A DNA stretch of 64,000 nucleotides from Fragilaria crotonensis. Its lineage: Eukaryota > Bacillariophyta > Fragilariophyceae > Fragilariales > Fragilariaceae. The stretch is from positions 46,001 to 110,000 of the forward strand of contig JAKSYS010000132.1 in NCBI GenBank assembly GCA_022925895.1. Direction: 5' to 3'. Below, in pieces: positions 17,535 to 59,662 of this stretch (the stretch's first letter is position 1; each line of letters begins with the position of its first letter). Below the pieces are notes generated by a model. That model was not told where the DNA came from, did no database searches, and saw only the letters and a program-made list of their open reading frames with translations. Both the position numbers and the translations under genes were made by a program.

Positions 17535-17543
17535 TTATTTTTT

Positions 17544-22350: not shown

Positions 22351-22374
22351 AAGATAATAGGTAATGACAATTTT

Positions 22375-22945: not shown

Positions 22946-22954
22946 TTATTTTTT

Positions 22955-37144: not shown

Positions 37145-37207
37145 TTAATCTGGCCTCTTCCTCAAACCACCAACCGACCGACGACTCGAACGACGAACGC
37201 AGATAGG

Positions 37208-39859
37208 ATGGCCGACATGTCGTCCCCTATGACGATGACGTCTACGTGGGAAGACGTCTTCCGTGCCCTTGACCAGTGGGAAGTGGTCCCGAAGCTCAAC
37301 AGATTACACACGAAATCGAATTCGATTAATACGGAGTCTACAGGGTTTGTACACCTGTGTTCGCCGGACATCGCACACCTGATGGTAAACACGCACGGGA
37401 CGATCCGTCTGTTCCACCACTTTCACCACGACGCCGACGACGGACTAAACGACGGAACGAACGCCCTATGGGCACTTCTCGGCGGCGGTGGATTCGCAGC
37501 CGCCATGGCGGTCGACACGAAACAGATCGTCAGAAGCCACGTTGGAACGCCTTACGATTGGTCCAAAATGCTCACGTGGAATTCTACGTCCGACGTACGA
37601 AGAGCGATTGAAGAATTGGTGACGACGAGATCTTCGGTGTCAGGCGTCAGCGAGCGCCGGACAGGCATCGGCGCCGGCGCGGGAGCCACCTCCTGTGGCA
37701 GCGACGAGAGGACGCCCCAAGAAAGGCAGTGCCCCAAGAGGCAGATCCAAGTCGAGCAAACATACTAACGAGACTAACGACCAAGACAAGACGAACGACG
37801 CGGACGCGGACGACACAGAAGACGTCACGGTCGTCGGTTTCACCATGAAACCGACAGTACCAGTTCCGGCGTTCATCGCAGCAGCCATCATGGAATCATA
37901 CGTCACCGACCCTGAGGAATTGGCCCTGATGATAGTCAGGACCATCAAACAGAGGGCGAGTGAGGACCCGGACCCCGACCGGGCGTCGAGGTTGGCCGAA
38001 GCAGCGTCCTACGTACCTCGATGGGTTCTCTGCGTTGCAGCGAGCACCAGAACCACTCACGGTCCAACAAAGTGGGGAGTGGCGGCTTCGTCAGCTTACT
38101 CTAGGCGAGCGGACGACTGGGCGAAAGTCCTACACATGAAGTACCTGGCCGTGAAGGCTAAAAGCCTCATCCAATCGGACGATCAGTCAGAAACGCCAGG
38201 ACGAGAGAACGACGCCATCAGAAACTTGTCGAGCCTCCTCGAAAGACAGGTCGCTAGCGCAGTCGCGTCATCTCCTCAAATCCCGAAGACAGGATTCGAC
38301 TCGTTCCCCGTCGACAAAGCGGATGATCCTGTTCGTTTCGGAGAAGGACGCCTTGGGAGGACCCCAACTCGCCCCGTCCAGACCTTCGCAGACATCCTAG
38401 CGCTCAGCAACGTGGCGTACGTCCAAAACCACATACACCATTTCTTGCGCAACACGAAAGGGAGGGATGCATTCATCCCAATGGGTTTCTGCGCAGCCAT
38501 TCGGACCGCATCCTTCCTAGCCGACGCTTCGGACAGACCAGGAGCCTTCAGCCTTTTTTGCTGCGGGCCCCAGACGCTCGCACGATCGAACGCGACGGGC
38601 AGGGATGCTCTCGACCACGCAAGCACCCTTGTTCAAATGCAACTTAAGACGACAGACACGACAACTGGATTCTCGGACAAAGACATCAAGAGCATGACGA
38701 AGCTCAATTTCACTATCCCGCGTGATTTTCACGAGCTCGCGCGACTACTCGAGAACATGGCGGGGGTGGCCGAGCTCCTCTTCGGCCCGCGGTCCCCGTT
38801 GACGCATATGTTGGACGAGTGGTGTCGTTTCCTGACGCGAGCAGTCGGATCGACCTTAGCGACGTTACGACAGCTAGCTCACGAAGACAACTCGGCCGCC
38901 TGTCGCCTCGGTTGGTTCATCGAGAAACGCACGCAACAATACTTGGTGTTGTGCGCAGGAGTGGAACACGAGGACGATATCAACCTGAATCTGCTAGACT
39001 TCCGTTCGACGCGTCAGCAACTGGAGGACGGAGCCTTCGTCTTCCCCGCCTGCGACTTCTTGAAAGACAGGATGGGGTCCGGGGGGCAGCGCTGCCGCGA
39101 AGGCGGAAGCCCCCAGCGCATCAGGAGGAGGCGGCGCACGATCTGGACGAAAGGGACAACCAGCAGACGCTGTCACGAACCCGCAGCAGGACCTGTTCAC
39201 GAAGGACGCCAACGACGTCTGGCAGGTCTTCCTCGATCACGTGCGGAGCGGGCCGCTCCCGAACATGTGCTGCCGCTGGCACTTGAACGGCAAGTGTGTC
39301 CGGAGCTGCTTCCTGAGCGCTTCGCACGTCGCCCTTACGACCGAACAAACCGCGAGCGTTAGGGCATGGATCGAACAATGCAGGGCGCGCATGCGCCGAC
39401 CCTCGTCCGACTCGACGCCGCCCAGCAAGAAAACGAAATTAGGACCCTCTGCATCTGCTTACACTACAACTTTTTTCGTCGCTCAGCCTTCCCGGTGGTC
39501 CTTTGATCACGAGGCAGCCCATCGCGAATTTCACAATCGACGAACGACAGGGGACGCACCGCCTTTCCGCGACTCGCGCCAGCCGACCGATGGACCCATA
39601 GCGGGTCCGTCCATAGCAATCCCGGCTGCACAACCACGCCCGACGGCAACGATCGCCACGCATGAGACATCGCTCGCGGCCGCGACACCGCCTCGCCCCG
39701 CCCGACCGCCCACGACCGTCCGCCGCGGAGCTGACCGCCCCGGCACTGCGAACGAGGACGTTCGTCTCACGTCACGACTCCTGGACACCCCCTCTGGGGG
39801 TCCTAGGACCAACGGTAAGTCACTCGCCCTGGTTCCACTTCCGACGATACCGCTTCCGA
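37208..39859 (+). pseudogene. Gag-like ORF of the DIRS-like element
   Basis: ATG at 37,208 (MADMSSPMTMTSTWEDVF). The first part runs in one frame to about 37,640, then continues in another (VAATRGRPKK, ASYVPRWVLCVAASTRTTHG) to about 39,075, and in a third after a G-rich run (GGGGTCCGGGGGG) with DLFTKDANDVWQVFLDH and MCCRWHLNGKCVRSC. That last string has C-x(8)-C-x(3)-C-type spacing with a following H and may be a nucleic-acid-binding knuckle. This is probably the element's nucleocapsid-like protein. Its C-terminus overlaps pol and was not fixed. Both frame changes lie in G/C-rich runs. Confidence 0.65.
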
Positions 39860-42000
39860 ATGTCGACTCGCCTTTCCCGCGCCTTCCCGAACCTCGACTC
39901 GCCGATGCTCTGGCCAGCATCCTCGACGCCCCCCCAGCCGACGACGCACCCGACCGAATTCCGCTTCGAATGGACTCACGAGGCGGCCGCTCACAACCTG
40001 GCAGTCCTCCGGCGCTACGCGCTGGACCTCGGGGCAGCCGTGGACGCCCAACCGTTCAGCGCGGTGACACCCGGATCCGAATTTCGATCCGCCGCGCTCC
40101 TGGCGCCGCTCCTCTCCGCACACCCGCTCTGGTCGCGCTTCCAAGAGCGCATTTCAGACGGCGCGGATTTTCCCCTCCGCGAGATTTCCGACGCCGACCG
40201 CCTCGCCGACGTCCGCGACAACCTCGCCCGTGGCAATCACAAATCGGCCCGAGGCCACGAAGCGAAGTTGATATCAATGCTAAAAGAAGAAGTGGAAAGG
40301 GGCTGGCAACTGCCCCTACCGAGGGAGGCCGCTCTGGAATTAGAAGGCTGCGAGGTGGCGCCTTTGGGCATGGTGGCACAGACATCGATCGACGAGAAGG
40401 GACAGACCATCGAGAAGCTAAGGCTCACACACGACCAGTCATTCAACCCCAGCGGGATCCCAGGACGAAGCGTAAACGACAGAGTGGACACGTCACAACT
40501 GACGACCGCACGATTTGGCAGGGCTTTCAGTCGACTGATGTACCACATCTCGTACCTCAGACAATTGTGGCCGAAAGAACCCATCCTCCTCACAAAGGTG
40601 GACTGCAAATCCGCCTACAGACGAATACACTTAAAGGCACGAACCGCCCTGAAGTCTTGCACTAGCATTGACGACCTGCTCCTCGTGGCACTCAGGATGA
40701 CTTTCGGAGGAGCACCAAACCCGTCCCAGTGGAGCGACGTGTCCGAAGTAATCACGGACCTTGCGAATGACCTCGTCAGGAGATCAGACTGGGACCCGAA
40801 GGTATTCCACTCGCCGCATCAACACTTGCTTGATTCTGACGAAGCCGTAGATAACGACGATGGAATGATCGACGGGTCGAGCGAATTCGGAGAAGCCGAT
40901 TTCTTCGCTGTGAACTACCCGATCGCAAACGACGACGATCTACCCAGATTCGACTGTTACCTGGACGACATTTTTGGGGCTTTCAACCCAAGAGACGCAG
41001 AAAAGAGCTCGGCAGCGATTCCCTTGCATTGCACATAGTGGGAAGACCCCACAACGCAGAGGGAAACGAATCCTTTCCCAGAGACGACATCCTTGCCATC
41101 CCGAAGTTCCTGGCCGAGGCGAAACCATCTGAGCGGAAGATGATCTTGGGATGGCTGGTAGACACACGCCGCTTCACGGTCGCTCTGCCTGAGGACAAAT
41201 ACCACGCATGGACGAAAGTGATCGACAAGATCCTAGCGAACAGGCATGCGCACGTAACGACGAACGATCTGGAGAAGACCCTCGGACGACTCAGCCACGC
41301 CGCATACGTCGTCCCGTACTCCAGGCATTTCATGGGGCGACTCTACAAGGCATGCGAGAGATCGAAACGAAGTGGAAAGACGAGACTGACGAATCCCCAA
41401 CGCGATGACCTGAGCCTTTGGAGGAGCTTCCTGCGAAGAGCGGCGCAAGGGATCTCCATCAACAGATTGGTCTGCAGGTGGCCGACGCGAATCGTTCGGG
41501 TGGACGCTTGCCCGCAAGGGATAGGAGGATATGGTCTCCAAAGCGGGATTGCTTGGCGATACCAACTGCCCGAAGATCTAGCGGGACGAGCGACACTTAA
41601 TACGTTGGAGTTTCTAGCAGCCTTCGTGGGAATGGTAGTCGAATTCCGCGAAGGAAAAAAGTGGTCGCCAGTCTCGGACGTCCTGCTAAGCCAAGGGGAT
41701 AGCACCTCGGCCGCAGGGTGGCTGGCAAAGTCCAGCTTCGACGACAACTGTCCGCTTCACCTCACCATCGCGAGGAGTTTCGCTGATTTCTGTCTGACGC
41801 ACGAGATCGACCACTACACTCAATGGTTCCCGGGGCGAGAACAAGGTGGCGGACATTTTATCGCGAGACTTCGCGCTCGACGACGACGAGGTCACCTCGC
41901 TCATCAGGAAACATGGCTCACCCTTTGTCCCACAGAACTTCAGGATCATCCCCTTGCAGCCAGCCCTCATTTCGCAGATTGGAGACTGGCTGCGTCTGCT
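39860..42000 (+). pseudogene. Reverse transcriptase/RNase H of the DIRS-like element
   Basis: A likely start is the ATG at 39,860 (MSTRLSRAFPN). RT motifs: LLTKVDCKSAYRRIHL (first Asp), MTFGGAPNPSQWS, and FDCYLDDIFGAF with the catalytic D-D. The frame changes at about 41,020. It continues with KMILGWLVDTRR and TLGRLSHAAYV, then the RNase H-like part VDACPQGIGGYG, NTLEFLAAF and LLSQGDSTSAAGWL. It shifts back near 41,838 to read VADILSRDFALDD, the usual end of this domain. In the family this protein copies the element RNA into DNA. I see no adenine methyltransferase domain, which fits Ngaro/PAT and not classic DIRS. Breaks are one- or two-base and may be sequencing errors. Confidence 0.85.
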
Positions 42001-43234
42001 GCCCAAAACGCAGCTCTTGCCGACTCAACCCGCGCCAAGCGCAGCAGCAGCTGGAACTGCTACGCACGATTCCTCGAGCGAGTCGGAGTCGACCTCGACC
42101 CTTTTCTCCGCCGGTTCGGACGAAACGAAAGGACGGAAATCTTCGCGTGTTTCGCTGCCGCCCTTCGGGACGGACGGCTTCGCTCCAGACAGCCTGCGAC
42201 AGATGGCAATGGAGCCATGTCCGGTACCATTCGTGCCACCCTCGACGGTGTGGCTCAGACCTTCAGGCTTAACAAACTTGAGAGCCCAATCCACGACTCC
42301 GCCGGACGCCTCGACCCCCCTTCTGGCTTTACAATTGAAGAAGTACGCGGACGACGACCCGGGAGTCGCACAACAACAAGCCATTCCTCTTGAAGTGATC
42401 AGGAAGGTGAGATCCTGGTCCAGGAACGAGTTGGACGTGGCAGTCGGACAACTGGTGGTCACGGCCTTTTTCTTCGCCATGAGGTCTTGCGAATACTCCG
42501 ACGTGGGAGGCGGCAGACGAACATCGGTAGTCAGAGTAGACGACGTTCGATTCAGGAAACAGGACGAAACGCTGACGACTTTCTCCTACGAACAAACCCG
42601 AAATGCAGACGCCGTAACGATCACCTATCGACAACAAAAGAACGGAGACAAAGGAGCGAAGGTGACGCAGCACAGGAACAACAACCCCGGTCAGGCAGAC
42701 ATATGTCCGGTACGGACACTTGCGGAATTGATTCACAGAATTAGAGGCTACGAACGACTTGGTCGGACGAACCCGAAGATAAACGCTTTCGTATCGACAA
42801 CATCGAACGAGCTCGAACACGTCTCTTCGAAAACGATCCTCGAACAGCTGAGGGCCGCGACAATACTATCGGGAGAGGAGAGGCTGGGACTCCAGGCCGA
42901 TCGAATCGGTACGCACTCGATTAGGTCGGGCGCGGCCATGGCAATGCACTTGGCAGGTGTGCCAAGCGAAACGATACAGATGGTGGGCCGTTGGCGGAGC
43001 AGGACGTTCATGAGATACCTACGCATCCAAGTGCCAGACACCACGATCGGGGTCGCCACGCGCATGACGAATCGACAAACTTTCTTCACAGTCGCCCATG
43101 ATCCTGCGGACGAACGACAACCGGAAAATGGCGGAAACCAGGTCGACTCACAACGACGCGACGGACCCCCGCTAGATGAATATCACGGGACCGACCCCGC
43201 GAGACGAACCAGGAGAGAGAGACAAAACTATTAG
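42001..43234 (+). pseudogene. Tyrosine recombinase of the DIRS-like element
   Basis: The N-terminal core-binding part (STRAKRSSSWNCYARFLERV) overlaps the end of pol in another frame. A frame change in the run GACCCCCCTTC (about 42,310) leads to LLALQLKKYADDDPG and the catalytic domain. Active-site residues visible: Arg in FFAMRSCEY; H-x-x-R in GTHSIRSGAAMAMH; Trp in GRWRSRTF; and the nucleophile Tyr in MRYLR. A Lys in QQKNGDKG fits the beta-hairpin lysine. The stop at 43,234 lies inside repeat B1. This enzyme would integrate a circular DNA intermediate, which explains the lack of a target duplication. Confidence 0.88.
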
Positions 43235-43428
43235 GACCAGATTCCGATGCCATCTATTTAGTTCCACTAGCCTCGTGAACATGAAGGAGAATCCAGAAAA
43301 CCACACACAGCAACACACGAATCGACGCGACAGTACGCGAGACAGCGGTACGACGAAACCACTAGGCGGCCGACTCATCCGACTAAACGGACTTAGAGAA
43401 ATGCGGACAAGACTCGGAATTTATTTCG
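43131..43428 (+). repeat. Split direct repeat B1
   Basis: 298 bp, from GCGGAAACCAGGTCGACTC to GGAATTTATTTCG; identical in length to B2 and nearly identical in sequence. It includes the end of the recombinase ORF. Confidence 0.93.
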
Positions 43429-43579
43429 TGGCATGTCCGAAGTTCGGGAAAGGGAGAGCAGTCGCCGTCAGACAGACGAACACGAGACACAGACAGACGA
43501 ACACCCGGACACAACACAAGATGCGAATTGCTCACAATCCGGACGAACTCGAATCAACAAAGACACTACTCTAGTTAAT
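43429..43579 (+). repeat. Split direct repeat A2
   Basis: 151 bp, directly after B1 with no gap. It matches A1 except for one extra G. The B-A junction is the form expected for the circular recombination joint. Confidence 0.93.
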
Positions 43580-43669
43580 CCCACCCACCCACACCTCCTC
43601 TCCTGGCCCGATGCCTAGGTTCATCGGCGCCTCCGGCGCCGGTTACCTCCTGGCCATGCACTGCATGGG
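43580..43669. other. 90-bp spacer between A2 and B2
   Basis: Unique sequence containing GGCGCCTCCGGCGCC, an inverted repeat (about 43,626-43,640), and a CCCACCCACCC run. In related elements this interval is often a palindromic or regulatory spacer. Confidence 0.6.
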
Positions 43670-43967
43670 GCGGAAACCAGGTCGACTCACAACGACGCGA
43701 CGGACCCCCGCTAGATGAATATCACGGGACCGACCCCGCGAGACGAACCAGGAGAGAGAGACAAAACTATTAGGACCAGATTCCGATGCCATCTATTTAG
43801 TTCCACTAGCCTCGTGAACATGAAGGAGAATCCAGAAAACCACACACAGCAACACACGAATCGACGCGACAGTACGCGAGACAGCGGTACGACGAAACCA
43901 CTAGGCGGCCGACTCATCCGACTAAACGGACTTAGAGAAATGCGGACAAGACTCGGAATTTATTTCG
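43670..43967 (+). repeat. Split direct repeat B2
   Basis: 298 bp. It ends TTATTTCG, immediately before the resumed transposase sequence ACGGAGGGTCACG. Confidence 0.93.
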
Positions 43968-45961
43968 ACGGAGGGTCACGATCGTCTTTGCGGGCACTAC
44001 ACCGCACGATTTGCAAAAATCAAACAACTATGCCGTGCATGCGAATGTCCCACAGAGATGACTGGTTACTCAAAATCTGTGTACCGCCACAGGAAGCCAA
44101 GTCATGTTGGAGGTTTGGTGAGAGAGGGAGATGTTGAATCCTTACGCGCACTATCACAAAATTATGTCGTTAACGGCTTTAACAAAGTTCGGTTTGGCCA
44201 GCACAACGCGAGAGGAATTTTTGGAGCTTGTCCTGGTGAAATCCTCCACTTGATCACACTTGGGTGGTTCAAGTACTGCCTTGAATCCTTTGCACACCAA
44301 GCTGGCGCAAAGAAAGGGAAGAAATCGGCTGCGCTTGAACATTATGACGCTCTTTGCGCAGACATTGGAAGTGCCATGGTACGGAAAAGTGACCGCGACC
44401 TACCACGTACAAATTTTCCGAAGGGTTTTTCCACGGGATCTAATCTGATGGGTCATGAGATACCAGGATGTCTCCTAGTCAAACTCTTCGCATTGCACAC
44501 TAGTAGTTTCCGACAAATCTTTCCCCCTCCTAAAGAGTCAAAGAACAAGGCTGCGAATGGAAAGGGATGGAAGAAGAACGAGAACGGAAAGCCTGCAGAA
44601 AGAAAGGGACAACAGAAACGGCCGTCGGCAACTGTGGAAGCAGGGAATGATGCTGCGATGCACGATGCGAAGCAGGAGGAAGTGAAGTATGTACCACCCC
44701 CACTGCCTAAACTAGCTAGGGTGTCCCAAGCACACCGCAGATTGGATTCACATCATTTCTTGTCTGCTGCAATGGCATCAATGGATGAAGCAACCGACAA
44801 TAAGGCGTAGTCATGTGATAAGGTTGGCCACTGGTGTTCGATGGCTAATCCGCAATGTTGCCAATATTTGCCCACGGATGTCGGGAATGAGGAACAATAC
44901 AATCAAGATGCACCTTGCGCTTCACATCAGTGAGGATATACTTGATCATGGTGTCCCCGACGTGGTAAACTCATCATATGCAGAATCTGCACACATTCCA
45001 CTTGCAAAGAATACATCTCGCAATACTCAGAAGCGTGTTGCATCCTTTACAAGACAAGCAGCACACCGGTACCATGAGGATTTGGCAATCTTGGTTGCCA
45101 ATAATGATGTGGACGAGTTTGAGGCCAAGAAGCCTCCAATCCCTTTAACTTCCTCGGGTGCTGCTGGTCGTCGGTTTGTTCTATCGCAGAAACCCTCCTC
45201 AGCTGGTGATGACATCATGTTTGCGTGGAACTCTCCCCGCGCGACAGATGATTCGCCTAAAAACAGGCTTCCATCTCGTATCTCCAAATTTATTATGAAA
45301 TATTGTTGCCCAGATGTCCCCAGGGGTTTGGCAAAGTCTGTGCAATGCTTCACGGAGTTTATCTCTGAGGAAGGAGATCGGTACAGAGGCCATCCAAACT
45401 ATCATGGGAAACGTTGGTGCGATCATGCAATGATTAATTGGAATCTTGATTTCCCCTTGCCAGGACTCATTCACACCTTTGTGGACCTTCGTCATCTCCC
45501 AGATAATACTCGTATTCGCACGAAACTACAAAAGAATCTCAAACCTGGAATGTATGCGGTTTTGGAATCCTACGATGCAGAAGATGCAGATCCGGCTGTT
45601 CCGAATAATATGATCGGCCTGTACACACTTCATAGGGAACCAGAAGAGGGTCGTGGCAATATGCTGGTATCTATTTACCTCATCGAGGTTGGGAGCATCT
45701 TTGCTCCCACAGTTGGGATTCCGGACTTCGGGAACAGAGACTCAGACAAGTATTTGTTCCTATTCCGAAGAAGAGAGGAATGGCCATCAGCATGGGATCA
45801 TTTTGTACAGTACTGTTGCAAGAATAACGAGGAGGAAAGCTTAGAGTCTGAATACGAGGAGGAGGATGACAAAGACAACGAAGAAGTCAACGAGGACGAC
45901 GAGCAGGATGATGACGACGACGATGAGCAGGAGGATGACAATGATGACGATGACGACAAGA

Positions 45962-46010
<49 letters not shown>

Positions 46011-46164
46011 CAATGACAATGACAATGACAAAGAGGATGACAATGATGACAAGGACGACGACGATGATGATGATGAGGACAATGACGACGATGACAACAA
46101 CTCGGATGATAACGATGATGACAACGAGAACGAGGATGATAACGACGATGACGACGACGAGTGA
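43968..46164 (+). pseudogene. Plavaka/CACTA-like transposase, 3' part
   Basis: It resumes in frame with 35,582-36,994 at TEGHDRLCGHYTARF, so the motif GDTEGHD (probable second catalytic Asp) straddles the DIRS insertion. A zinc-like LCRACECP and QHNARGIFGACPGEILHL follow. One frame change near 44,800 separates this from MRNNTIKMHLALHISEDIL and NSSYAESAHIPLAKNTSRN, then QAAHRYHEDL, the conserved C-terminal part with the probable catalytic Glu. Residues near the end are a long Asp/Glu tail from GAC/GAT codons (45,841-46,164). The antisense of that tail is open only because the codons are repetitive. The gene ends 39 bases from the convergent accessory gene. Confidence 0.75.
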
Positions 46165-46202
46165 ATACTCAACAAGTACAATGGTAGGTTACATACGGCA
46201 AG

Positions 46203-48088
46203 CTAAATTCTAAACTTTAGTACTCCTTTCTTCTCCTTTTCTTTTTCTTCCATTGTTGTGAAAGGTGCACCAACGCCTACTAATTCCATCCCCAGATTGA
46301 GCTCATCATCAAAAGGTGTGGTCACTCCTCCAATCGTACTATCATCCTTGCACGTCGTGGACGATGATACGATGGCAGCACATGCATTGACCCTGCCCGC
46401 CCGAACAACCTTCTCTTTGCATGCCGTGAACGTTCCGTAAAGGTGATTGTCAAACCTTTGACCGCCACCCGAAAAAACTTCGGCGTTGTCCTCGCCGTCG
46501 GGTTTGGAAACCGAAGTGCAGTGCCGAAGCACTCGCCCATCCCAGCTGATGGCAACTCCGTGATAGAGGCGCACAGCCAACCCAGAGAAAGGTTTGCCAT
46601 CTGCTCGTGTGCCAAACACATTTGGCATTATGAAGTACCAATTAGAGGCTTTGCCGGGCATCTCTTCCGTCCACACAGCAAAGCCCTGCGAACAATCATT
46701 GACATCAAAGTGTGAAGAGTTGCCGAGGTTGACACTCATGTCAATAGTGCGCCCAACCCAATCCCCATCCTTTCCGTCCATAGGAGACATCATCGGAACA
46801 CCAGAGTCGCTTTCCAAAGTCTTGATCAAGTGCATCAAGTCAGGGTAACACAGACGGCCAAGGCAACAAAGAGCAGCAACCATGTCTCGCAGGACAAGTT
46901 CGTCAACCTTTTCGTTTGCAGCGTAAGGAATCATGGTAGCCCCATCTCCCTCCACACGCATGCCAATGGCGTACATGTTACCAACATCACCCCCCCGTAT
47001 TCCTGACCCCACTAGTTGTTCGCATGCCCCGGCGAATCGCAGTGTTACACCGCGTAGTGCCGACCGCCGAGTCGGGCAGACTTAGATCCCGCAAGAATAG
47101 AGTTGAATTCCAGTGCCAGTACCTCCCTTGGCCATGCCATGGAGAAATTCTGTCCTGAGATAACATCTGGGGGCAACATGGGGCCGTCTTGATCAGCGCA
47201 CTGATTGGCACGAATGATCACACGTTTGTCGCAAAGAATATTGTACGTCATGCGCCACACCGAAACTGGAAGGCCATCAGAACCGCCACCACAATGAAGT
47301 CGCTTAACATAACCGCCATCACCAATGGTGTACATAGGAACACGACGTTGTTGAGAGTCCAAAACTTCACTGCGATGTAGGCGAAGCCAACTCATGTCGT
47401 GAGGAACAAGCGTCTTTTCAACACCTGCGTCAGCACGTCGTCGATCACATGAGCAGTAGAAGACACCAGCATTGGGGATGAAAGCTATCAACGCACGGAA
47501 CTGATAGTCCACAGAGTCATCAAGATCATCCGGTTTGAAGCATCTCATCACCCGAACATCATTGCCATTGTTAATCTCGCTTGTAGTGGGAACAATTGCA
47601 CGATTCAGCACAACATCCATGAAAAACACTTCACAGACAGATTCCCAGGAGATGCTTCACATGCGACTCGTGGAACATATCTGATAGCTTATTGATGCGA
47701 TAGAAGTCGCAGATGCGATATCCCACAGAATCCAAGGCCGCTCGAAAGAATGAGACAGGAGTGCCGCAGATATCGTCATCAACGCCGCCAATTGGAGGAA
47801 GAGGAGGATTCAGCACGGCATCTCTGAAGGCTGTCGCAACCCGCTCGCGATAATCCTCCTGATCAAAAACAGTACCTGCATCAACAGTGAAAGTACACGC
47901 TCCTTTGACGGAAGGAATCCTTCAGCAGTCCGATTTAAAGGCAGAGAACTGCCAGCAATGTCATGGCCTGCAGCACCAACCCCAACCGCACGCGGATTGC
48001 GTCCCATGGCTGAAACAGAGCTCTGCGCCGGAAGCGTACGCCGCGCGCTAGCTATCCTGGCGCGATCTCGTGAAGGATCTGCAAACAT
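46203..48088 (-). pseudogene. TE accessory gene, putative Fe(II)/2OG dioxygenase-like (Plavaka-element copy)
   Basis: The leftward gene is in several frames (48,088-47,810; 47,816-47,631; 47,629-47,045; 47,012-46,203). It is homologous over its length to the leftward gene of both MULEs. Shared blocks: CGTP, DYQFRALIAFIP, GVFYCSCDRRR, PHDMSWLRL, GDGGYVKRL, CADQDGPMLPPDVI, ARLGGRHYA. A stretch of about 80 residues present in the MULE copies is missing near 47,045. The C-terminal core is well kept: VNLGNSSHFDVNDCSQGF, NWYFIMPN, YHGVAISWDGRVLRHCTSV. H-F-D plus a distal H would be the iron ligands of a dioxygenase. The protein is clearly diverged from the MULE copies, so the sharing is old or the gene came from different donors. 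Confidence 0.6.
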
Positions 48089-49191
48089 GATGATACCGAC
48101 GATAAGGCGGCAACGCGATCACTAACGACAAGTTGTTCACCCCTGTCTGGGGGGAAACAACCAATCCTGAGTTCGCACGCGCCAGAAAAACAAGCAATTC
48201 CCCCTCTTCACGTTGAGTGATAAGGCAGCACGTCGTCACAAAGGACAGATTTGCAAATCCCTGTCTGGGGAGAAGGCAATTGTACCAGAGTTCCAACACG
48301 CCAGAAAAGCAAGCAGTTCCCCCTCTTCAGACGACAACAAGCATGAATGTGGTATACCTCACGTATGTGCTGGGCACAAAGAGTGCAACAGCAGTGTGGA
48401 TGTCCATAAATTGTTGTGAAAGCAACTCGTGCAAAATAGTGCATTTCACGTCGATTCCAGTATAACCAATACTACGTGCAAGGCACGCGTTGCCCATGTG
48501 GGACTTCAGGCCAAAAATTTCCTTCCCCCCTCAAAACTGTCTAAGTACAAAAACAAATAAACATGTGTTAGTCATTTATTTTTTCATCTTCTTCATTTTG
48601 CCATGGCAACAAGACCCTAACTAACGTAGCCATAGATGTGCTAAATCCTTATGTATTCAGGCACACATTCTTGTCACATACAGAAATTCCAAGTCGAATG
48701 CATCACCAGCCAGCCAGTACTTAAGATGATAACGGTAATTTACCTTAGTACTGAGAACTGACGCATCGCAGCACCTAAAAAAAACTCGCAGCACTTAGTA
48801 ACAAATCATATATACCAAGCACATGCGCATCTTCATCGTACCGAGTGAGTGTACATGATACGCAAACATCGGAGTATTCCCACGAAGTAATCGTGGCGGT
48901 TACAAAAACGAATAGCGGCAAAATATTGCCATATAAACGTATACACATCATGATATATTGCAGGAATATAACTAGTAAGCCTTCAATCCCCGACACAGCA
49001 ATATTTATTTACAACGGTAGCTTGCCACAAACAATTGTACAGTGCCTTTAGTAATAATTTCTGTCGACACACCCATTCAAATTGACTCTGTGTCAAGCAT
49101 ACAAACAACATGTGTGCCCAACTCTTCAAATTTAAATGGGAGTTGTGAACAAAAGTGCTTCGCGCTCAAAACTTTTCTTGTGCCGCAAGCG
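48089..49191. promoter_or_regulatory. Divergent intergenic region of the Plavaka-like element with a 110-bp direct repeat
   Basis: Two direct copies of about 110 bp, at 48,101-48,210 and 48,219-48,329, run from GATAAGGC.GCA through CCCTGTCTGGGG and CACGCCAGAAAA to TTCCCCCTCTTCA. CCCCTGTCTGGGG is itself near-palindromic. They lie upstream of the leftward accessory gene, like the GCTAGATGGCAGG repeats in the MULEs. The rest shows no gene. Confidence 0.6.
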
Positions 49192-50547
49192 ATGAAACTT
49201 GTTCCCACAATTGTATACTTCTACAACAGAGTAACTGAAGCCATGAACAACGGAACTGTATCTGACAAATCAGACTCCGAATCTTTATATGAGGATGAAG
49301 ACAGCGGCAGTGGCGAAGACGAAATTGCCGAACCGTCAAAAGGAGGAAAGCGGCAAAGAGAACATATCGAAGAAGAGGACCATGACAACGAGGAGGCTAC
49401 GGCACGGTCTAGTAGCCCGGACCACACATATAACACAAGTGACGGAGAAGAAAATAGTGACCAAGAACGAGTGGGATAGGAGTTGGACAAAATGCTTCCC
49501 TGCCGGGGTGCCGAGGAATTACATTCGTCCGATGATGACGATGATGATGACGACTATGTTGTTCCTGCAAAACGTGGAAGAACATCGTCAGCAGGAGCTG
49601 CGCAGAATTTGGAGGGTTGATACGAGTAAGAGGTATGTCAGCAAAAGAATCGTCCATGTCGGAAAAACACCAGGAGAACATTGCAGATAGGGTCACAACT
49701 TACGTCAGAAAACATATGTTTCGAGTCGTCAAGTTTATCAGCAATGAACACATGTTTGGTAAGGCTTTCAAGGAGGTGATGGACCACGAGTGTGTGCAAA
49801 CCGAGATCGTGTGAAATTCCAGATGTTATATGAAAGTGTTTTTAACCATGCGTTGAACAGCAAGAGGAGCACATGCGAGCAGGCGGGGAAGAACATCATG
49901 ATGAGAGAACTAAAACAATTCAAGGAAGATAGAATGGATGTGTTCTCAATTGATGAATTACAAAAATGAGGAGAGCAAGTACGGAAAGGGAGAAAAAGCA
50001 TTCCTCTGGTTCTATGGAACATTTCTTGAGTGCGTTTGTGGCCTGAAGCACTGGGGTGTACAAAGAGTAAGCAATTGGTGTCGCAGGCGACGAGCTCGGC
50101 CACAAAACACGGCAAGTTGGTGACCATCAGCGACGAGGCTTTCGCTCTCCTTCTCTACAACTATATATTGAGAAGTGGCTCAAGGCATTTCAGCGAGAGG
50201 AACAACTGCGGCACGAGACCCCACCAGCAGAACCACAACCAAGAGCGGCGCCGGCAGCAGGAAAAGTCCAAGAGGGAAAGGGAGAAAGGCAAGTATACTG
50301 CGCAAAAACAGGCCACTGCAAGTATGGTGGATGGAGCCGCGAAGGAATGGCAAGGTACAACGAATTCTATCACTTGGTGAAGGCTGATCGCACGTGTGAA
50401 CAAGCCATGGATATGGAGCGTGAACTGCTCAATCACTGCATTGCACTGAAAAGGAGAGGAACAAATGGTGAAGGAAGTCGAGACACCTCCGATGGAGAGC
50501 AGGCAGAAGCATTAGAACCAGTGGAAGCATGTTGGGATTTGGAATAA
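49192..50547 (+). pseudogene. Third gene of the Plavaka-like element, unknown function
   Basis: It starts at the ATG at 49,192 or 49,243. The N-terminal part is acidic and disordered (SDSESLYEDEDSGSGEDEI, a second Asp run DDDDDDDY). After frame changes near 49,480 and 49,620 comes a helical region (VTTYVRKHMFRVVKFIS, FGKAFKEVMDH), then QFKEDRMDVFSIDELQK and FLWFYGTFLECVCG. Near the end, KYGGWSREGMARYNEFYHLV and MERELLNHC are the best conserved-looking parts; I recall similar GxCKYGGWSxxGMxRYNEL proteins in diatom genomes but cannot name a family. The stop is at 50,547. It is possibly a DNA-binding or assembly partner of the transposase. Confidence 0.45.
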
Positions 50548-51054
50548 CAACGCAATTTATTGAGGTGCACAATTATTATGATCATCACCATAACATTCTG
50601 AAACGAAACCGCAACGAGTGATTACTCCACTTTTGAATGTGGAGATGTCGACATGCAGCGTCATTGTTAAACATAGAAACTTAAACTATACACATATTGT
50701 TGTCAAGCAATCAATATTTCAAGCTAGTAAGCAACGTTTAACAACGACTCTGCACAATTTAAAGAATTTCATTTCACCAGATAAAGTTATAGCATTTATC
50801 TTTTATTGTTATAAATGACTATAATATGGTGACAGATACCCATTAAAATTGATTTATTCAATTTACATTGTGATTCAAATTTACTGCATAACGTTGCTTA
50901 AAACCAAAAAAAGCCATGTAAACCAATTTAAAAGTTTAAAACACAAAGAAAATTGTAATTGCAATCGACAAATCTTGTTTTATTTTGTTTTTGTTTTGAT
51001 GTTTGTTGAGTATTTGCTTAAAGGTGTAGTATGATACTAAACTGTGAAATATAA
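50548..51054. other. AT-rich 3' margin of the Plavaka-like element
   Basis: Strongly AT-rich, with no gene. It resembles the AT-rich left margin at 35,100-35,330 in composition. MULE-2 is inserted at its end. Confidence 0.45.
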
Positions 51055-51063
51055 CTTTAAAAT

Positions 51064-51635
51064 GGGGAAATTACAAAATCACGTATTTTTCAGCCACTTT
51101 TCAATATAGTACAATGACCCTCTATATACAACTTTACATCTTACTATATCACCGATTTGCTTTTGACGTTTACAATATCACGCATACATTTGTTCATATA
51201 TTACTATATCACGCAAACGTGATATAGTAACACATTTTGTCGCCAGCCACATCTTCTCTCCACAGATAACATGGTACACCGTATTGTAGCCAATGTCATA
51301 AATGAAGAATGGCCAACCTTGCACCACAACCTCTTTCTCCGTCGTTTTGTTTCAATCACTTGTAGCTCCCAGTTTGATTGCGCTAATGTGGTAGTTGTTA
51401 TCACTCTTGTAGTGTGGTCATTATTTGCGTTGTGCTTCTTCTGTGTTGAACGTTCAAATTCAAATTGACCATTGTGGGCGATGCATTTGAATCAACTGAA
51501 CCTGATACAGTAGTCTACGCACCTTTTGGTATACAGTACCATAATGTTCATCTGAGAAGTACATGAACCTAAATCCAGCCCCTTGTTGTCACCCTCATCG
51601 AATGCAACATGACGCATATAGTTGTTATGCACACT
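51064..51635 (+). repeat. MULE-2 left terminal inverted repeat
   Basis: 572 bp, matching 17,544-18,115 and the inverse of 57,554-58,124, with scattered substitutions (for example ACAAAATCACG for ACAATATCGCG near the tip). It includes the hairpin at 51,201-51,230. Confidence 0.92.
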
Positions 51636-51667
51636 TGAACTACCTGCCTATTAGAGACTATTAGAGA

Positions 51668-53736
51668 CTAGCTGGGGCAACTTCGTTTGTCGTGGCCGGC
51701 CGGAGCCACTTCTAGGCACGGACTTTCAGATGCATGAGCACGGCCAGCGGCTACAATCTTCTCCTTTGCCGCAGTGAAAGTGCCAAATAAGTGATTTGCA
51801 CCTTTCCAACCAGTTCCTACGGGCGCAGCACCTTCACCGTCTGGCCTAGACACAGATGTGCAGTGCCTCAGTGCACGGCCATCCCAGCTGATGGCAGTTG
51901 CATGAGAAAGCTTTATGGCGATGCCGTTGTAATCCGTACCACATTTCCTCTTGCCGTACAAATTTGGAATCAGAAAGTACCAGTTTGATCCACAACCCGG
52001 CTTCTCCTCTGTCCATAGACTAAAACCCTGTGAAGCGTCATTCACATCGAAGTGTGACGCGTTTCCCAGGTCAACGCTTACATCAATTGTGTACCCAACC
52101 CGGAGGCCCTTACCATTTCCATCCATCGGAGCTATTGGCACAAGGGACGAATCGGCTTCCACGTTCTGAACAACAGAAAGGACATCCGGAAAACAGTAGA
52201 GGCCAACAGTGGCAAAGGCCTCGACAAAGCTCCTCAGTAACGGTTGAGGCACCTTATCGTTTGCAGCGAACCCGACAGTTGTCATTCCATCCAACAGGAC
52301 ACGGGTCCCAATAGCGTGCATTGTACCAACATCCCCGGTATTCTGCCTCGCCGTGCCCACCGCTGCTTCTCTCCGAAGGCGAGAATTGTGTTCACTGATC
52401 ACCTCGATGGAAGCAAGTAGGTCATGCCTGCCCATATGGCAATACCTTGACTCGTGGGAACCATCAAGAATACTCCTCACCATGATAATTGACTTCCTCC
52501 CAACTGCACCAGAACCACTGGGGGCGATGTCGACAATGATATCAACGAATGGGTGTTCCAACGGGTCAATCGTCCAACAAGTGTCGGGGATTTTCAGGTG
52601 CAAGCACCCCGGGGCGTAATGTCGACCACCCACCCTTGCTGAATTCGAGTTGACAAGGCGGCGATTGTATTCTTGCGCACGGTCAGCAACTGGCCACGCA
52701 CCCACATCGTGTCCAGCAATAATGTCTGGTGGCATCCGAGGGCCATCATGATCCGCACATTGCGTTGACACGAACACTTCGCGCAGTAACCTTGGTGCTG
52801 CTGGATAGTACAAAACTCTCCAGGCAGAGACCCCAGCACTTGTAACGGAAGCAAACCTCTTCACGTATCCATCCTCTCCAAATTGTAAACGGAAGTCCGA
52901 CCCGGTGGAACCTGCACCGACATGTTCGTCCTTAGTCGAAACCAACTCATGTCGAGAGCAATGCGTGAACCTTCAACACCTCAGTCTTCCTGCGCCAGTC
53001 CCTTGCGCAGTAGAACACTCCGCCCCGGCAGGAAAGCAAGGAGAGTCCTGTACTTGTAGTCGTTGGCATCGTCAAGATCCTCAGGTCCGCTTGCAGGCGC
53101 CATAATTACATCATCAGGTCCCAATGCAACAATGTCCGCGTCACCAGTTTTAAAAGCACTACTTATATTTAAGGTCGCAGCGGCCGTCGGAGTAATCTTT
53201 CGGTTACATATCACATCCATGAGAATGAACTCCGAAAGGTACTTCGAAGTGGTGGCATGTTTCATGAAGACCTCATCCAGTGAGCGCAATTGCGTGATGG
53301 CACTGCAATTATCACTAACTTTATAACCGGCTTTCACCTGCTCCGCGTCAGCAAGCCGAAGGTCCTTGCAGATCGAACAATTAAGCGCATACGATATCCA
53401 TCTTAAGGGCGTGCCGCATACCTCGACCTCGCCACCAATAGTTCCAGTCAAAGCTGCAGAACGAAACGCAATCGTAAAATCGGAAGGGGAAAAAATATCC
53501 CTCCCATCCAGGGGGAAGCACTTCAGTAGCAGTGCCAACACTTTCGGACCTGAAGGGAAGTAATTCCTTCTCGCCCGCTTTCGTGGCATCTTGTTACTGA
53601 GCCGCTTCCTCGAGGCGGGCACCGCCACCACCCTTGGATTATCCTTCCCGAGGTTTAGTACAGTAGTGCGACAAATCGACGTCCGACCTCGCATCTTCAA
53701 CGCATCATTGTCTTCATTCCGAACCAATCCTGACAT
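51668..53736 (-). pseudogene. TE accessory gene, putative Fe(II)/2OG dioxygenase-like (MULE-2 copy)
   Basis: ATG at 53,736 (MSGLVRNEDND). The N-terminal 245 codons are intact to about 53,020. Two or three short indels relative to MULE-1 (TCCGCCCC for TCCCGGCCCC; ACACCTCAG for ACACCCTCAG; GACCCGG for GACCCCGG) disturb the next 130 bases. From about 52,900 it is open to the stop at 51,668, including the whole C-terminal domain. Key positions: H-F-D of SHFDVND at 52,046-52,054, and the distal His in LRHCTSV near 51,865. An Arg (SRPDGEG) follows that His by six residues and might bind 2-oxoglutarate. Basic N-terminus RKRARRN. This is the best template for modelling the C-terminal domain. Confidence 0.62.
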
Positions 53737-54152
53737 ACTACCGTGAACTCCCAGCTAGATGGCAGGCAGAGACAGCGTATCGTCAGTCAGCAGCACAACA
53801 AACACGCCCGGCTAGATGGCAGGAACTGATGATGTGCTTCCAAGCGGATCGAATAAATGATGAGCAACGAGCGTCCATGCGCGTCGTCCGTAAGCAGCGC
53901 AACAAACACCCCGGCTAGATGGCAGGAAATGATGATGCGCTCCTCAACAACAGACGCAATGCTGATCAGCAAGAAGTCAATGTGTGTGAGAGGCAGCGAA
54001 GTGTGATCAAGGAAATGCATTTTCGCGCAATTTTGCATTTGGTTGACACCCTGATGTACTGGCGTACACGTATGTATGCATACGTGGTGTAGTATGACGT
54101 TGTCATTGCGCGCGTGCAAGACGTCAAAAAATTCATACATGCCACAGTTCAT

Positions 54153-54188
54153 TAAGTGTCTATTCTTGCGCGCAAGAATAGACACTTA
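54153..54188. repeat. 36-bp perfect palindrome in the MULE-2 divergent promoter
   Basis: Identical to 20,630-20,665. It sits in the spacer between the leftward accessory gene and the rightward protease-transposase gene, again with three GCTAGATGGCAGG repeats (near 53,753, 53,809 and 53,912). Confidence 0.85.
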
Positions 54189-54410
54189 GGGAGTATCTGA
54201 ACAGATTTGTACCATACCGGTAGTAATACAACAGCAATGCGGTTTCCAATATACAGTAAAGTATTTCATAAGGATGCAGTGCCGTTTATAACAGTTTTTA
54301 AGGAGTGATGCCAATGTAGTACAAATACAGCATAGCTACTACTTCTTCATCGTCTTCTCAAAGCATTGTTTCCTTTTTGTCGTCAAATACTGATCAGAAC
54401 ACGATAAACC

Positions 54411-57400
54411 ATGGCAAAGAAGGCAAAGAAATGCTTTCCAGGCGATCCCCGCTTTTCGGGATGGATATCTCCAAGTAGCGAGGATATTTCTGCACTACCG
54501 CGTAATGCTTGGTTGAGCACGTTGCTGTTGGACTGCATACTGCAGCGATCTGCGCCGCCGGTGGATGTGACATCCACTGACACTTTTCATATTGGGAGTC
54601 TTGGCACCCGAACTTACATCCAGTCATGTAACGATCTGATCACGTATGTACCCAATGGACCCGACGCGGTTCAAGTGGGGAGGGCAAACCGACGAAAAGT
54701 TTCACGCATTCGTGCATCTTTGCAATCTTGTTTCCGATCCCGTCCCGTCAGCAGGCTCCTTATACCGATTGTCTTGGTACACCACTTTTTTGTGCTTTGC
54801 TTGGATTGTTCGTTCTCTAGTCGAGAATTTATTACCAATTTGACAATTTACGATTCCCTGCAACGCCGCACTCGTCAAATTAATCCCGACGTCGCAACCA
54901 TCGTAAAGGAAGTCAACTACTTCGTGCGATTCTACATTCTTCAAGAGGAGGAACATGAGCACCTTCGACTGACGGATGAGGCCTTGCTTAAGCGAGTGGA
55001 GTATGGAGAATGTCCACGTCAGTTCAACGGATTTGATTGCGGTTTATTTGCAGTTGGCATCGTTTTGCACCTTGTCGAGGGTAAGGTGATCACGATGGAA
55101 ACGTTTACTCAACAAGACATCACCGGTTTGCGGGCTAAACTGACGGCCGTGTTTGGGGGAGAGGGCACCGGATTAGGGACGACAAGTCAGGTTGTCCGCG
55201 CCTGCTTCCCAAAACTGAATGGAAGTAGCATCCTTGATACTTTTGGTGTGGAGGTACTGGACGTGCCTGCCGCGGAAGTACACCAAGTCAGGTCGGCGGG
55301 CGGCAGTTCGATTACGGAGGAGGTGGAAACTGCTGTGAACAAGGAAAACACGATGGATACTGCTGGCCATTCGGGAAGTGACGAAGACATGGAAACCGCT
55401 GTGGAAAAGTGCGCATCGGTACTTGCTGCTACTGACGATGATTCGGCGAATGGCAACGAGGATGCGCTTAGTTATCACACTTGCGAGGACAGCGAGAGCA
55501 GTAGTGAGCTTAAGGATGATAATGTTACAGATTTTTGAACAGGAAATGAAGGGAGCAATCTGGCAAAGCCAGTGCCCGTCAACAAGTCTCCTGACGTATT
55601 GTTCTATGACATAATGAGGGACGCGAAGGTGGATTGCTTTGCGACGTTGGAAGAGGTGATGCCATTAATTGAAACGTATGAGATTCGGTCAGGAAATCAC
55701 TTGCGGGTGCAACGCTCACTCCGAAATCAATTTAAGCAGTTCCAATGTCGGGAGCACGTCAAATGTCCATTCCAAATTTTAATATCGAGGCGGCGATCTG
55801 ACGGCAGGTTTGGCGTGTCGAAGATTAAGGGTTTGCATGGCGACGTGCGACGAGCTCCGCTCGCGGCTGATGGGCGGCATTGGAAGAAGCGACATCCGAA
55901 CCTGCATGGAATTATTGGTCAGGTGGTTCAAACAAAGGAAGGAACACCGACACCGGCAGACGTTCAGAAGACGGCTGCGACACGTTCTGGTCTGATTGTG
56001 CCGTACATGACTGCGTACCGAGCACTGACCCATGAAACAAGCGCTCAAAGGCTGCAACGTTGAAAAACTTCGAGATGATTATCCCTTTTTGGAAGCGTTG
56101 AAGAGCTGTAACCCTGATTCCATTATTGGATGCGAGAGGGATAAGGACATGAGGGTCGTTGAGCTGCATGTTTTCCCCGGGATCATGAACCGAGCGCTGA
56201 AGTTTGTGCGCCCGGTACTGTCTTTGGATGCCGCCCACCTGAAGAGTGTGTTCAAAGGCACTCTGTACGTTGCATCAGTTCTGACGGGTAGCAATGATAT
56301 CTTCCCAATTGGATTCATGATCTCGGCAGGCAATGAGGATGGTGCTTCGTGGCGAAAGATGCTTCGTTATCTGAAGAAAGCGTGCCCAATCATTGGAGAG
56401 CAGGTGTACGGGAATGTTGACGTGGATGGGGTCGCGAGGCCCCCATTTCTGTTCATTTCTGACCGAGACAAGGGTCTGAAACCGGCGTTGAAAGCAGTGT
56501 TCCCTGATAATTTTGAGATGAGCTGCGCAAAACACATCGAGGGCAACGTGGCGCAGAAGTTTGGCAAGCAGTGTTCCAAATATGTATTGGCAATTGCAAA
56601 AACATTTTCGACAAGAAATTCTAGTCGCTTATTTGAGGAGGTACGCAGGATTAAGCCGGAAGCTGCAACGTATCTGGATGAAATCACGGACAAGGATCGT
56701 GTTCTGTGGCGGACCACTCAGTGGTACTCATCTTCTACCGCCGTTGTCATTCCACCAAGGTATGGAATTGTGACGTCAAACACAAGTGAGGCAGTGAACA
56801 ATATGTTCTCTGAAGCTAGAGACCTGGGGTGGTTAGAGTGTGTGAACAAACTCATCGACATCATGTCGACAAGGATATACGTGTGCAGAAAGAAGTACAG
56901 TGAACGTGGGGGTCCGAAGTGGTGCCTAGAGTTGCGCAGATAATGAAGGTTAGGTGGGATGCAGCTGCTAGCATGACGGTTGTCGAGTTGGAAAGTGGAT
57001 GCGGTGACTTTAAGGTCGTAGAACCATCATCACTTGCGGAGGATGACCTTGCTGAGAATACAGTACGATCGTCAGCAGGATACCTGGACCAAAACCGCAT
57101 CAACATAGTAAAGCCAGACCTTCAATGGTGCAGCTGCGGTGTCTGGCAAGACTTCTTGTACCCCTGTCGACATGCGTGTGCAGTCTTCAGGAAATGGAAA
57201 GAAAAGACTTCACCTATGTCATCGGCAATTTGGTGCATCCCTACTACAGTTTCGAGTTTGTACAAAACACGTTCAGGAGCAACGTCTTCCCGTCTGCTTG
57301 GAAACACTCGAATATGATGGCGTGACGAAGGAACCAGCATTGCCAAAGCGACAGGCGGGACGCCCGAAGACAAAACGAATTCGCAGACGAAGTAAATTTG

Positions 57401-57540
57401 TCGAATTGAAGCAGTCGCCTGTAACATGTTCCATCTGTGGGAAAAGGGGTCACAACCGACGAAGTTGTGTTCCGTCTGTGCAGAAAGGTGCCAAGTCCAC
57501 GAAATTGCCCCAGTCTCTAATAGTGTCTAAAGATAATAGG
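54411..57540 (+). pseudogene. Ulp1 protease - MULE transposase - SWIM - CCHC polyprotein
   Basis: From the ATG at 54,411, 375 codons are open to a TGA at 55,536-55,538, where MULE-1 has CGA. The same frame then continues (DVLFYDIMRDAKVDCF), so one long protein is likely. The N-terminal Ulp1/C48 protease has VHHFFVLCLD (His), TIYDSL (Asp) and CPRQFNGFDCGLFAVG (Gln, Cys). A zinc/FAR1-like DNA-binding part includes CREHVKCPFQI. After a frame change near 56,040 comes the MuDR-type DDE domain: LSLDAAHLKSVFKGTLY (D), FLFISDRDKGLKPAL (D), TSNTSEAVNNMF (E). After another break at about 56,920 come the SWIM finger WCSCGVWQDFLYPCRHA and, past 57,210, the CCHC knuckle CSICGKRGHNRRSC. It would catalyse transposition. 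The protease probably acts on SUMO-like or element proteins. Confidence 0.85.
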
Positions 57541-57553
57541 TAATGACAATTTT

Positions 57554-58124
57554 AGTGTGCGTAACAACTATATGCGTCATGTTGCATTCGATGAGGGTGA
57601 CGACAAGCGGCTGGATTTAGGTTCATGTACTTCTCAGATGAACATTATGGTACTGTATACCAAAGGTGCGTAGACTACTGTATCAGGTTCAGTTGATTCA
57701 AATGCATCGCCCACAATGGTCAATTTGAATTTGAACGTTCAACACAGAAGAAGCACAACGCAAATAATGACCACACTACAAGAGTGATAACAACTACCAC
57801 ATTAGCGCAATCAAACTGAGAGGTACAAGAGATTGAAACAAAATGACAGAGAAAGAGGTTGTGGTGCAAGGTTGGCCATTCTTCATTTATGACATTGGCT
57901 ACAATACGGTGTACCATGTTATCTGTGGAGAGAAGATGTGGCTGGCGACAAAATGTGTTACTATATCACGTTTGCGTGATATAGTAATATATGAACAAAT
58001 GTATGCGTGATATTGTAAACGTCAAAAGCAAATCGGTGATATAGTAAGATGTAAAGTTGTATATAGAGGGTCATTGTACTATATTGAAAAGTGGCTGAAA
58101 AATACGCGATATTGTAATTTCCCC
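57554..58124 (-). repeat. MULE-2 right terminal inverted repeat
   Basis: 571 bp, inverse of 51,064-51,635. The outer end TAATTTCCCC is followed by the TSD CTTTAAAAT. Confidence 0.92.
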
Positions 58125-58230
58125 CTTTAAAATGTGAGTGCTAAATATTTTACAATCATTAATCCCCGTCCACTAACCATATGTATTGAATCCATTTTAT
58201 TTTTTAAAAGTCACCATATACCACCTTGTG

Positions 58231-59662
58231 ATGCATTCTTGAAGCCTCGTCCATTCTGTCACTCAGTGGTATACCAAGTTCCAGAGCCTAGTGGCCTTGA
58301 TGATGTGCATACAGCAATGGACTGGGTCAGTCAATCTATCAAGTGTGGACCTGATGTTCTATGAATTGACCCACCATCAATGCAACAGGACAAAGCAGAT
58401 GACGTTGATTTGAATCCAGATCCATTTGTCAGAAGTTGCTTGGTATTCATTTTTATGAGCTTGTCAGGAAATATTGCCCCAACTTCCTGATAACTTGATC
58501 ATCCCTGAGGAGTATGCTGGTTGTGACCAAAGCTTGTAGTGCTTGTTATCCCTGGGAGATACACAAGTGGTGATGCACAGTTTTTGATTTGCCGAACCTC
58601 AAGATCATGGCACTACGCTCCGGGTCTTTTTCATGTATATGAATTGCAATGATGACGATAGCACTCTTGTCCCTAGATTCTCAAACTTTTTGTCTCGTGG
58701 AAAGATGATACGATGGCATCAGCATGAAAGATTGTGATAGAACCAGGTGGTACAGTGTTCTTCAATTCATCAACTTACGAATCCCGTCGCGGTACTTTCA
58801 GTAACTGTAGATTTCGTGCCAACAGCTCATTGAGGAAAAAATACTTGGAAAACCGACCGACGGATGGGCAATTGAGCGTATGCAGGAACTCATTTCATAC
58901 GCACCTATGACATATATATATATATGACTAGTGGGTGCCTCACATTTGATCGGAGTGTCTACTACAGGAAACTGGAAACTGGACGTACAGTACCCCCAAC
59001 CTGGTCGTACTCCGTACCACTACTTTTTTCCCCTACAGTATGCAGTACCATGGTACCAACGTAGGAAACTTCATGAAGTACAGTACCAGGTACAGCTGTA
59101 CATGGTACTTATCATGCCCCAGTATTGCAGTTCATCGCACGGTATATTTTACAGTAGCATTTGTCAAGCAACCTGTTCACAGCAAATTCAATGAGTATTC
59201 CATCCAGTAACTTTGAATTCGTACAGTATTGTAGTTCAGTAACGTAACACACTGTCGTTTCAACATAAATTACCGTCCGTTTATGTACTGTAGACCTGTA
59301 GTACATGTAATCCACGTAACAGTGCAACATTTGATCCAGTACCCCAGAGTGGTCATACTCCGTAACAGACGCACGCACACACACACACACACATTAATTT
59401 ATAATATAGTAGGATAGGATATACTCGTACATACACAAATTATGTGAAAATAGGTAGGTGCGAATGAATACCCGCAGTTTTCGTTCAACCGCTGCGCTCG
59501 CGAACAGTACACGCATATATTACTGGTAGTACTCGGACCTCGGACTACTTGCGTACTCATAGTACGGTAATCTATGATAGTTATCCATGTAAAAATGTAC
59601 ACTACCTGTAGCTGTTCTGTAAGAAAACTACTGTACCCGTAAAACACACTCCATTCTCATAT
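58231..59662. other. Intergenic with decayed sequence, GTAC-rich stretch and an AC microsatellite
   Basis: No intact gene. The first 350 bases look like broken coding sequence of unknown type. 58,936-59,000 is the repeat shared with 7,636-7,692; here GAAACTGG is partly duplicated (GAAACTGGAAACTGG). GTAC words are dense from 58,980 to 59,640. (AC)n lies at 59,368-59,393 and a TATA run near 58,913-58,925. Confidence 0.5.

Follow-up and report, generated by a model that had tools for sequence, protein, structure and literature searches.

We consider a 64,000-nucleotide stretch of the genome of the diatom Fragilaria crotonensis (contig JAKSYS010000132.1, positions 46,001 to 110,000; the window), in which one accessory gene is carried by DNA transposons of two unrelated superfamilies, Mutator-like elements (MULEs) and Plavaka. 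The gene is almost certainly a mobile transposon accessory gene. Our overall reading, to which we give about an even chance, is that of a long-lived accessory gene held inside the element ends of two Plavaka and two MULE lineages, with a C-terminal domain that is likely a dioxygenase of the TET/JBP type. For that domain, an iron-dependent beta-helix oxygenase is the probable prediction. Whether a DNA base is the substrate, as for TET, we regard as evenly balanced, and an anti-silencing role is a conjecture that we hold a little less readily than that. The fold, the chemistry, the substrate and the role in silencing are all argued from motifs.

The window contains three copies of the gene, all on the reverse strand. 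The copy of MULE-2 (51668-53736) is read as the two open reading frames (ORFs) 51668-52945 and 52981-53736 and has frameshifts; that of MULE-1 (18049-20212) is also frameshifted; and that of the Plavaka element (46203-48088) has both frameshifts and a deletion of ~224 bp near 47053, as judged against six other copies. The two MULE copies are 98.7% identical in DNA over 4.5 kb. The Plavaka copy shares 51-55% protein identity with them in the C-terminal domain, and its N-terminal half is still recognisable in broken frames, which bears out the proposal of the initial annotation that the three leftward genes are homologous; the conserved motifs that it quoted are present. Every copy in the window is damaged; elsewhere in the genome the gene survives as intact single ORFs of 696, 808, 808, 754, 747, 751 and 724 residues. 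One of them (L002, 696 residues) is the counterpart of the MULE-2 gene on contig C22, and its residue numbering is used below. The same Plavaka and MULE-2 arrangement (46200-59660 in the window) is found on contig C22 at 99% identity, either as a second haplotype or as a segmental duplicate.

MULE-2 (51064-58124) has terminal inverted repeats (TIRs) of ~572-580 bp and is flanked by a 9-bp target site duplication (TSD), CTTTAAAAT, at 51055-51063 and 58125-58133. On its forward strand are a Ulp1-type cysteine protease gene (Peptidase_C48; 54411-55538; PF02902, E 4.3e-7) and the transposase (55572-57317), which is divergent from the accessory gene and matches the MULE family (PF10551, E 1.9e-8; profile match 56032-56943) and also Transposase_mut (PF00872). 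MULE-1 (17544-22945) has 572-bp TIRs and the 9-bp TSD TTATTTTTT at 17535-17543 and 22946-22954; it has lost ~1.65 kb, the transposase included. In a third MULE (contig C873:66157-73220) the accessory gene is enclosed by both TIRs. The assignment to the MULEs thus follows from the PF10551 transposase, TIRs of 572-580 bp, 9-bp TSDs around both window copies and the position of the accessory gene inside. At C873 the layout differs from that of MULE-2: a gene related to its Ulp1 protease gene (L028:48-965) follows the accessory gene on the 3' side, both being on one strand.

The limits of the Plavaka element are set by where its other copies cease to match. On the left, almost every copy starts to match at 35068; on the right, the homology reaches the left edge of MULE-2. 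When the flanks of MULE-2 are joined, the inverted left end CATCACAAGGTGG appears 100 bp past MULE-2 with a CA duplication outside it, and we therefore take the element to be 35068-58233, with 13-bp TIRs (CATCACAAGGTGG..CCACCTTGTGATG, at 35068-35080 and 58221-58233) and the 2-bp TSD CA. The transposase is in two forward-strand parts: an N-terminal part (35582-37768; PF18759, E 6.3e-6, 0.2 bits below the family cut-off, with relatives above it), whose homology ends at ~36994 where a DIRS-like element starts, and a C-terminal part (44058-46164), which is convergent with the accessory gene. The ends read CATCA..TGATG, with the accessory gene within them, and these are the termini given for PlavakaB, a group that carries TET/JBP genes in fungi (PMC12730594). 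The element agrees with this group in having a Plavaka transposase (PF18759, near the cut-off), these termini and a 2-bp TSD. With PF10551/PF00872 in MULE-2 and PF18759 here, the transposases are unrelated, as had been supposed.

The Plavaka element is interrupted twice, by the DIRS-like element and by MULE-2, which is nested in it. The DIRS-like retroelement (~36995-43967) lies within the transposase gene and has a tyrosine recombinase (PF00589, 41846-43234) and direct repeats of 150 bp and 299 bp. Another segment of the Plavaka element, 49042-50550, is 98-99% identical among its copies and 72% identical on contig C175; it may contain a further degraded gene, for which there is no Pfam match. 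Because MULE-2 does sit in a Plavaka element here, one may ask whether the sharing of the gene is simply an artefact of this nesting. We give that explanation practically no weight: MULE copies elsewhere (C873, MULE-1) hold the gene within their own TIRs, the Plavaka copies have a diverged version in another place and orientation, and the 68 linked loci described next exclude it. What the nesting does demonstrate is that different carriers can meet on one stretch of DNA, which may be one route of gene transfer.

Across the whole genome assembly, which comprises 881 contigs and 62 Mb, 111 matches define a family of at least 92 loci, and the sequences of 30 of them, ~4 kb each, were read for the alignments and the tree. 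Of the 92 loci, 68 have a transposase whose side, orientation and distance relative to the gene are fixed; they fall into four classes, and the transposase identities are backed by Pfam searches with PF18759 and PF10551. In 31 loci a Plavaka-1 transposase sits on the 3' side of the gene in convergent orientation, 1.5-2.1 or 3.0-4.0 kb away, and in 13 loci that of Plavaka-2 does so at 0.27-0.98 kb. The MULE-a transposase of 18 loci is divergent and 5' of the gene (at 3.1-3.8 kb in 17 cases), and the MULE-b transposase of six loci is convergent and on the 3' side. Among nearest gene-transposase pairs the orientation agrees in 31/32, 13/13 and 18/18. Uniform placement predicts 0.1-0.4 loci per class, and linkage by chance is rejected. 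The linkage to transposase genes that the initial annotation proposed to examine is therefore borne out in the diatom's own genome, and its statement that two unrelated DNA transposons carry the gene is right as to the unrelated transposons and too low in number, since there are at least four lineages of the two superfamilies.

The Plavaka-1 and Plavaka-2 transposases are related in their tails (27% identity, E 4e-12). Six loci (L016, L017, L018, L022, L023 and L030) show this second Plavaka-type lineage, convergent and 0.3-1 kb from the accessory gene; the C-terminal part of its transposase has no Pfam match. No transposase was found beside the other 24 of the 92 loci. MULE-1 is one of these because its transposase is deleted, and at another (C873:62763) a Ulp1 gene adjoins, two examples of why it is not established that the unlinked loci are without any element. 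In the tree, the MULE-b gene clusters with the Plavaka genes (99/100), apart from a single MULE-a clade; with few Plavaka and MULE-b rows and some long branches, this topology fits a possible exchange of the gene between element types. No relatives were found in IMG/VR, the GTDB genomes or phages, collections that hold no eukaryote nuclear genomes.

MULEs are known to capture host genes, and the next question is whether the accessory gene could be such a passenger, a host-gene fragment of the Pack-MULE kind with no function for the element. Many of its copies are indeed degraded. Complete ORFs of 696-808 residues nevertheless persist in several lineages, the same gene is retained by four of them, and the ratio of nonsynonymous to synonymous substitution rates (dN/dS) between diverged copies is well below 1: 0.16 (L002/L004), 0.16 (L027/L029), 0.26 (L024/L028) and 0.11 (L002/L008), with a range of 0.11-0.55, mostly below 0.4, over comparable pairs. 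The gene is under purifying selection and has therefore been kept working in several lineages, and we consider a passenger origin very improbable. The conservation spans the whole protein and is not confined to the C-terminal domain.

The reading as an oxygenase comes from a small number of residues that do not vary. The HxD motif and the Asp that follows it are present in 30/30 copies and the distal His, as RH, in 29/29, so that the variation which would have counted against these residues as iron ligands was looked for and did not appear. Among the ten aligned sequences (dN up to ~0.6), no His column other than H569 and H632 is invariant; H387 is His in all nine copies that cover its column. 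In the MULE-2 copy, the predicted ligands of the motif H-F-D-V-N-D (52037-52054, reverse strand) are the His at 52054-52052 and the Asp at 52048-52046, with the further invariant Asp (D+3, the third residue past the Asp of HxD) at 52039-52037. The predicted distal ligand, the His at 51865-51863, ends a G/A-x6-G-x4-H strand-turn-strand (51863-51901, reverse strand) that has the spacing of NgTET1 (GDVLFFKGNEYKH).

We compare these segments with the TET enzymes. The family reads SHFDVNDASQGFSVW ... NWYFVMPN ... GVAVKLxHGTAISWDGRxxRHCTS; the counterpart of the HxD segment is AHRDLHNMQNGSTLV in TET2, and NgTET1 has PHKDNLD ... PGDVLFFKGNEYKHV, the letters of both being checked against the PDB chains. 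The distal His comes 12 residues after the strand Gly in the family, in TET2 and in NgTET1. The signature H.D..G.{6}G.{4}H.T arises in 1/200,000 column shuffles, for a pattern that was chosen post hoc. The D+3 residue is Asp in 31/31 family copies and in NgTET1, Asn in TET2 and in 98/98 phage TETs, and Pro in two cyanophage oxygenases like prolyl 4-hydroxylase (P4H). This position (Asn1387 in TET2, Asp234 in NgTET1, Asp350 in CMD1) hydrogen-bonds N4 of 5-methylcytosine (5mC), and CcTET has Gly there (PMC11040006). A mycobacteriophage protein, gp2, called an 'oxidoreductase', and many IMG/VR relatives (L031, L034-L131) are of the Tet_JBP type, with HxD, Asn at D+3 and a spacing of 48 residues; they are annotated unevenly as oxidoreductase, queuine tRNA-ribosyltransferase or hypothetical.

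Several results weigh against an ordinary dioxygenase of the TET type. Pfam, NCBIfam, PHROG and PDB gave no match to single proteins, consensus or profile. Specifically, PF12851 (Tet_JBP) was not matched by single proteins or the consensus at E <= 10, nor anywhere in the diatom's genome at E <= 1, and the PDB searches returned no TET. The profile alignment (hhalign) with the 98 phage TETs is weak (score 18.2, p 0.022, equalled in 3/150 column shuffles), and its local alignment puts HxD out of register with HxD; with TET2 or NgTET1 as single sequences it gave no signal. The distance from the Asp to the distal His is 60-61 residues, against 48 in NgTET1 and the phage TETs. In TET2 and NgTET1, an Arg 10-15 residues past the distal His binds the carboxylate of 2-oxoglutarate (2OG) (PMC7854593), while the family alignment has no conserved Arg or Lys at H+9 to H+17, and its invariant R628, R631 and K665 sit outside the usual interval. 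The N-terminal part, ~450 residues, is without a known domain. Structure prediction did not help, since AlphaFold with three and two window sequences as input gave mean pLDDT values of 27.7 and 35.2, which are unusable; Foldseek and VIA-align with the second model returned low-Z unrelated chains and no 2OG oxygenase, a result that the quality of the model makes uninformative. The TET/JBP likeness claimed at the outset thus holds for the invariant triad, the TET-like spacing and the Asp at D+3, and does not extend to a profile relationship (PF12851) or to the 2OG Arg.

The accessory protein might instead be conserved without being an oxygenase, for instance as a transposition cofactor or as a DNA-binding or zinc-stabilised protein that both transposon types use, in which the His and Asp residues are structural or bind zinc. 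The undetectable oxygenase profile, the missing 2OG Arg, the conservation of the whole protein and the fixed arrangement with the transposase would all be accommodated. The pattern of H569 and H632, the Asp at D+3 and the G-x6-G-x4-H spacing, however, agree with the TETs, and the invariant columns show no conspicuous CxxC or other zinc motif; we regard this explanation as a real but doubtful one. Alternatively, a beta-helix iron oxygenase could have a target other than DNA bases (residues of histones or other proteins, or RNA) and might thereby take off a silencing mark or alter the transposase. The triad would serve this equally well, the sequence does not reveal a substrate, and D+3 by itself says little in favour of a base. 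Since an Asp or Asn at D+3 occupies the base-contacting position of the TETs and is absent from the two P4H-like phage controls, and since the transposon-borne oxygenases of fungi are TET/JBP (PMC12730594), such a target seems unlikely.

If the C-terminal domain is a TET-like oxygenase, a mechanism can be proposed. H569, D571 and H632 would hold Fe(II), and D574 would grip a flipped-out methylated base. The enzyme would then oxidise 5-methylcytosine, or a base like it, within the element or close to it, and this oxidation might weaken methylation-based silencing and so favour expression or transposition of the element. The gene could pass from one element lineage to another, perhaps through the nesting of one element in another. 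On the side of the host, C5-methyltransferase (PF00145) matches are found on nine contigs, and 5mC is reported in diatoms, among them Phaeodactylum, where it is limited to transposable elements (PMC12344493, PMC9998398). For the fungal transposons too, a base oxidase that opposes silencing is a proposal only. Because the canonical 2OG anchor is missing, the putative enzyme may depend on a different co-substrate (CMD1, for one, works with vitamin C) or may make a new base product. The most specific form of the proposal, a hitherto undescribed enzyme family with a TET-like structure that sequence comparison does not recognise, which lacks the canonical 2OG anchor and serves MULE and Plavaka elements as an anti-silencing gene that they exchange and share, is one that we put forward tentatively and think improbable as a whole.

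It is useful to place the gene among known systems. Iyer et al. 2014 reportedly described TET/JBP genes on fungal KDZ transposons. A later survey finds them on diverse DNA transposons of fungi, Plavaka included; it covers fungi only, reports no carrier among the MULEs and does not mention diatoms or stramenopiles (Kojima 2025, PMC12730594). The diatom gene shares with these carriers an orientation fixed within some lineages, apparent transfer between superfamilies, the HxD...H residues and the CATCA..TGATG Plavaka ends (PMC12730594); it differs in that profile or fold identifies the fungal proteins as TET/JBP, but not this family, and in that its 2OG Arg is not conserved. It looks like a divergent counterpart of the fungal carriage, with MULE carriers that are new relative to Kojima 2025. 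CMD1 of Chlamydomonas reinhardtii is likewise algal, with the HxD...H triad and an Asp at D+3, but it is a host enzyme that makes 5-glyceryl-methylcytosine (5gmC) and keeps the Arg positions although vitamin C replaces 2OG (PMC7854593). The PDB searches gave no sequence match between CMD1 and the accessory family, and the carriers have parallels of their own. Kaonashi-type MULEs of plants carry a Ulp1-type protease gene, and MULE-2 resembles them in its MULE transposase, long TIRs, 9-bp TSD and C48 protease gene, with the dioxygenase-like gene as an addition. The DNA methyltransferase of Sola1-1, a transposon of the alga Ectocarpus, is similar in being an accessory gene through which an element may alter its own epigenetic state; it is a methyltransferase with a ParB-like domain, in another superfamily and with no oxygenase (PMC12477816).

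Four further features of the window lie apart from these elements or beside them. A single ORF (13791-16283) has a pectinacetylesterase (Notum-like) domain and a C-terminal multi-membrane region that is rhomboid-like in look, and a 73-bp unit forms a tandem array with copies ~96% identical (28497-29402). An ORF of 977 residues (59663-62596), with long, near-perfect ETGDKVGDEAD repeats, lies next to the Plavaka element on its right. The gene at 62976-63896 carries four domains of the Helicase-associated type (HA, PF03457), which form a family that is expanded in diatoms; its presence agrees with a diatom source.

If the TET-like reading is true, the transposons of an alga far from the fungi have recruited a DNA-oxidising enzyme, either independently or by ancient descent, and different superfamilies of them share it. 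Escape from methylation by means of a base-oxidising gene would then be a recurrent strategy and not a fungal oddity, and the many intact natural variants in this genome would be a source in which to find new DNA-modifying chemistry, possibly with another co-substrate. Even if the assignment as an enzyme fails, four lineages of two unrelated superfamilies keep a gene on which Pfam is silent, and this gene must serve a need of both.

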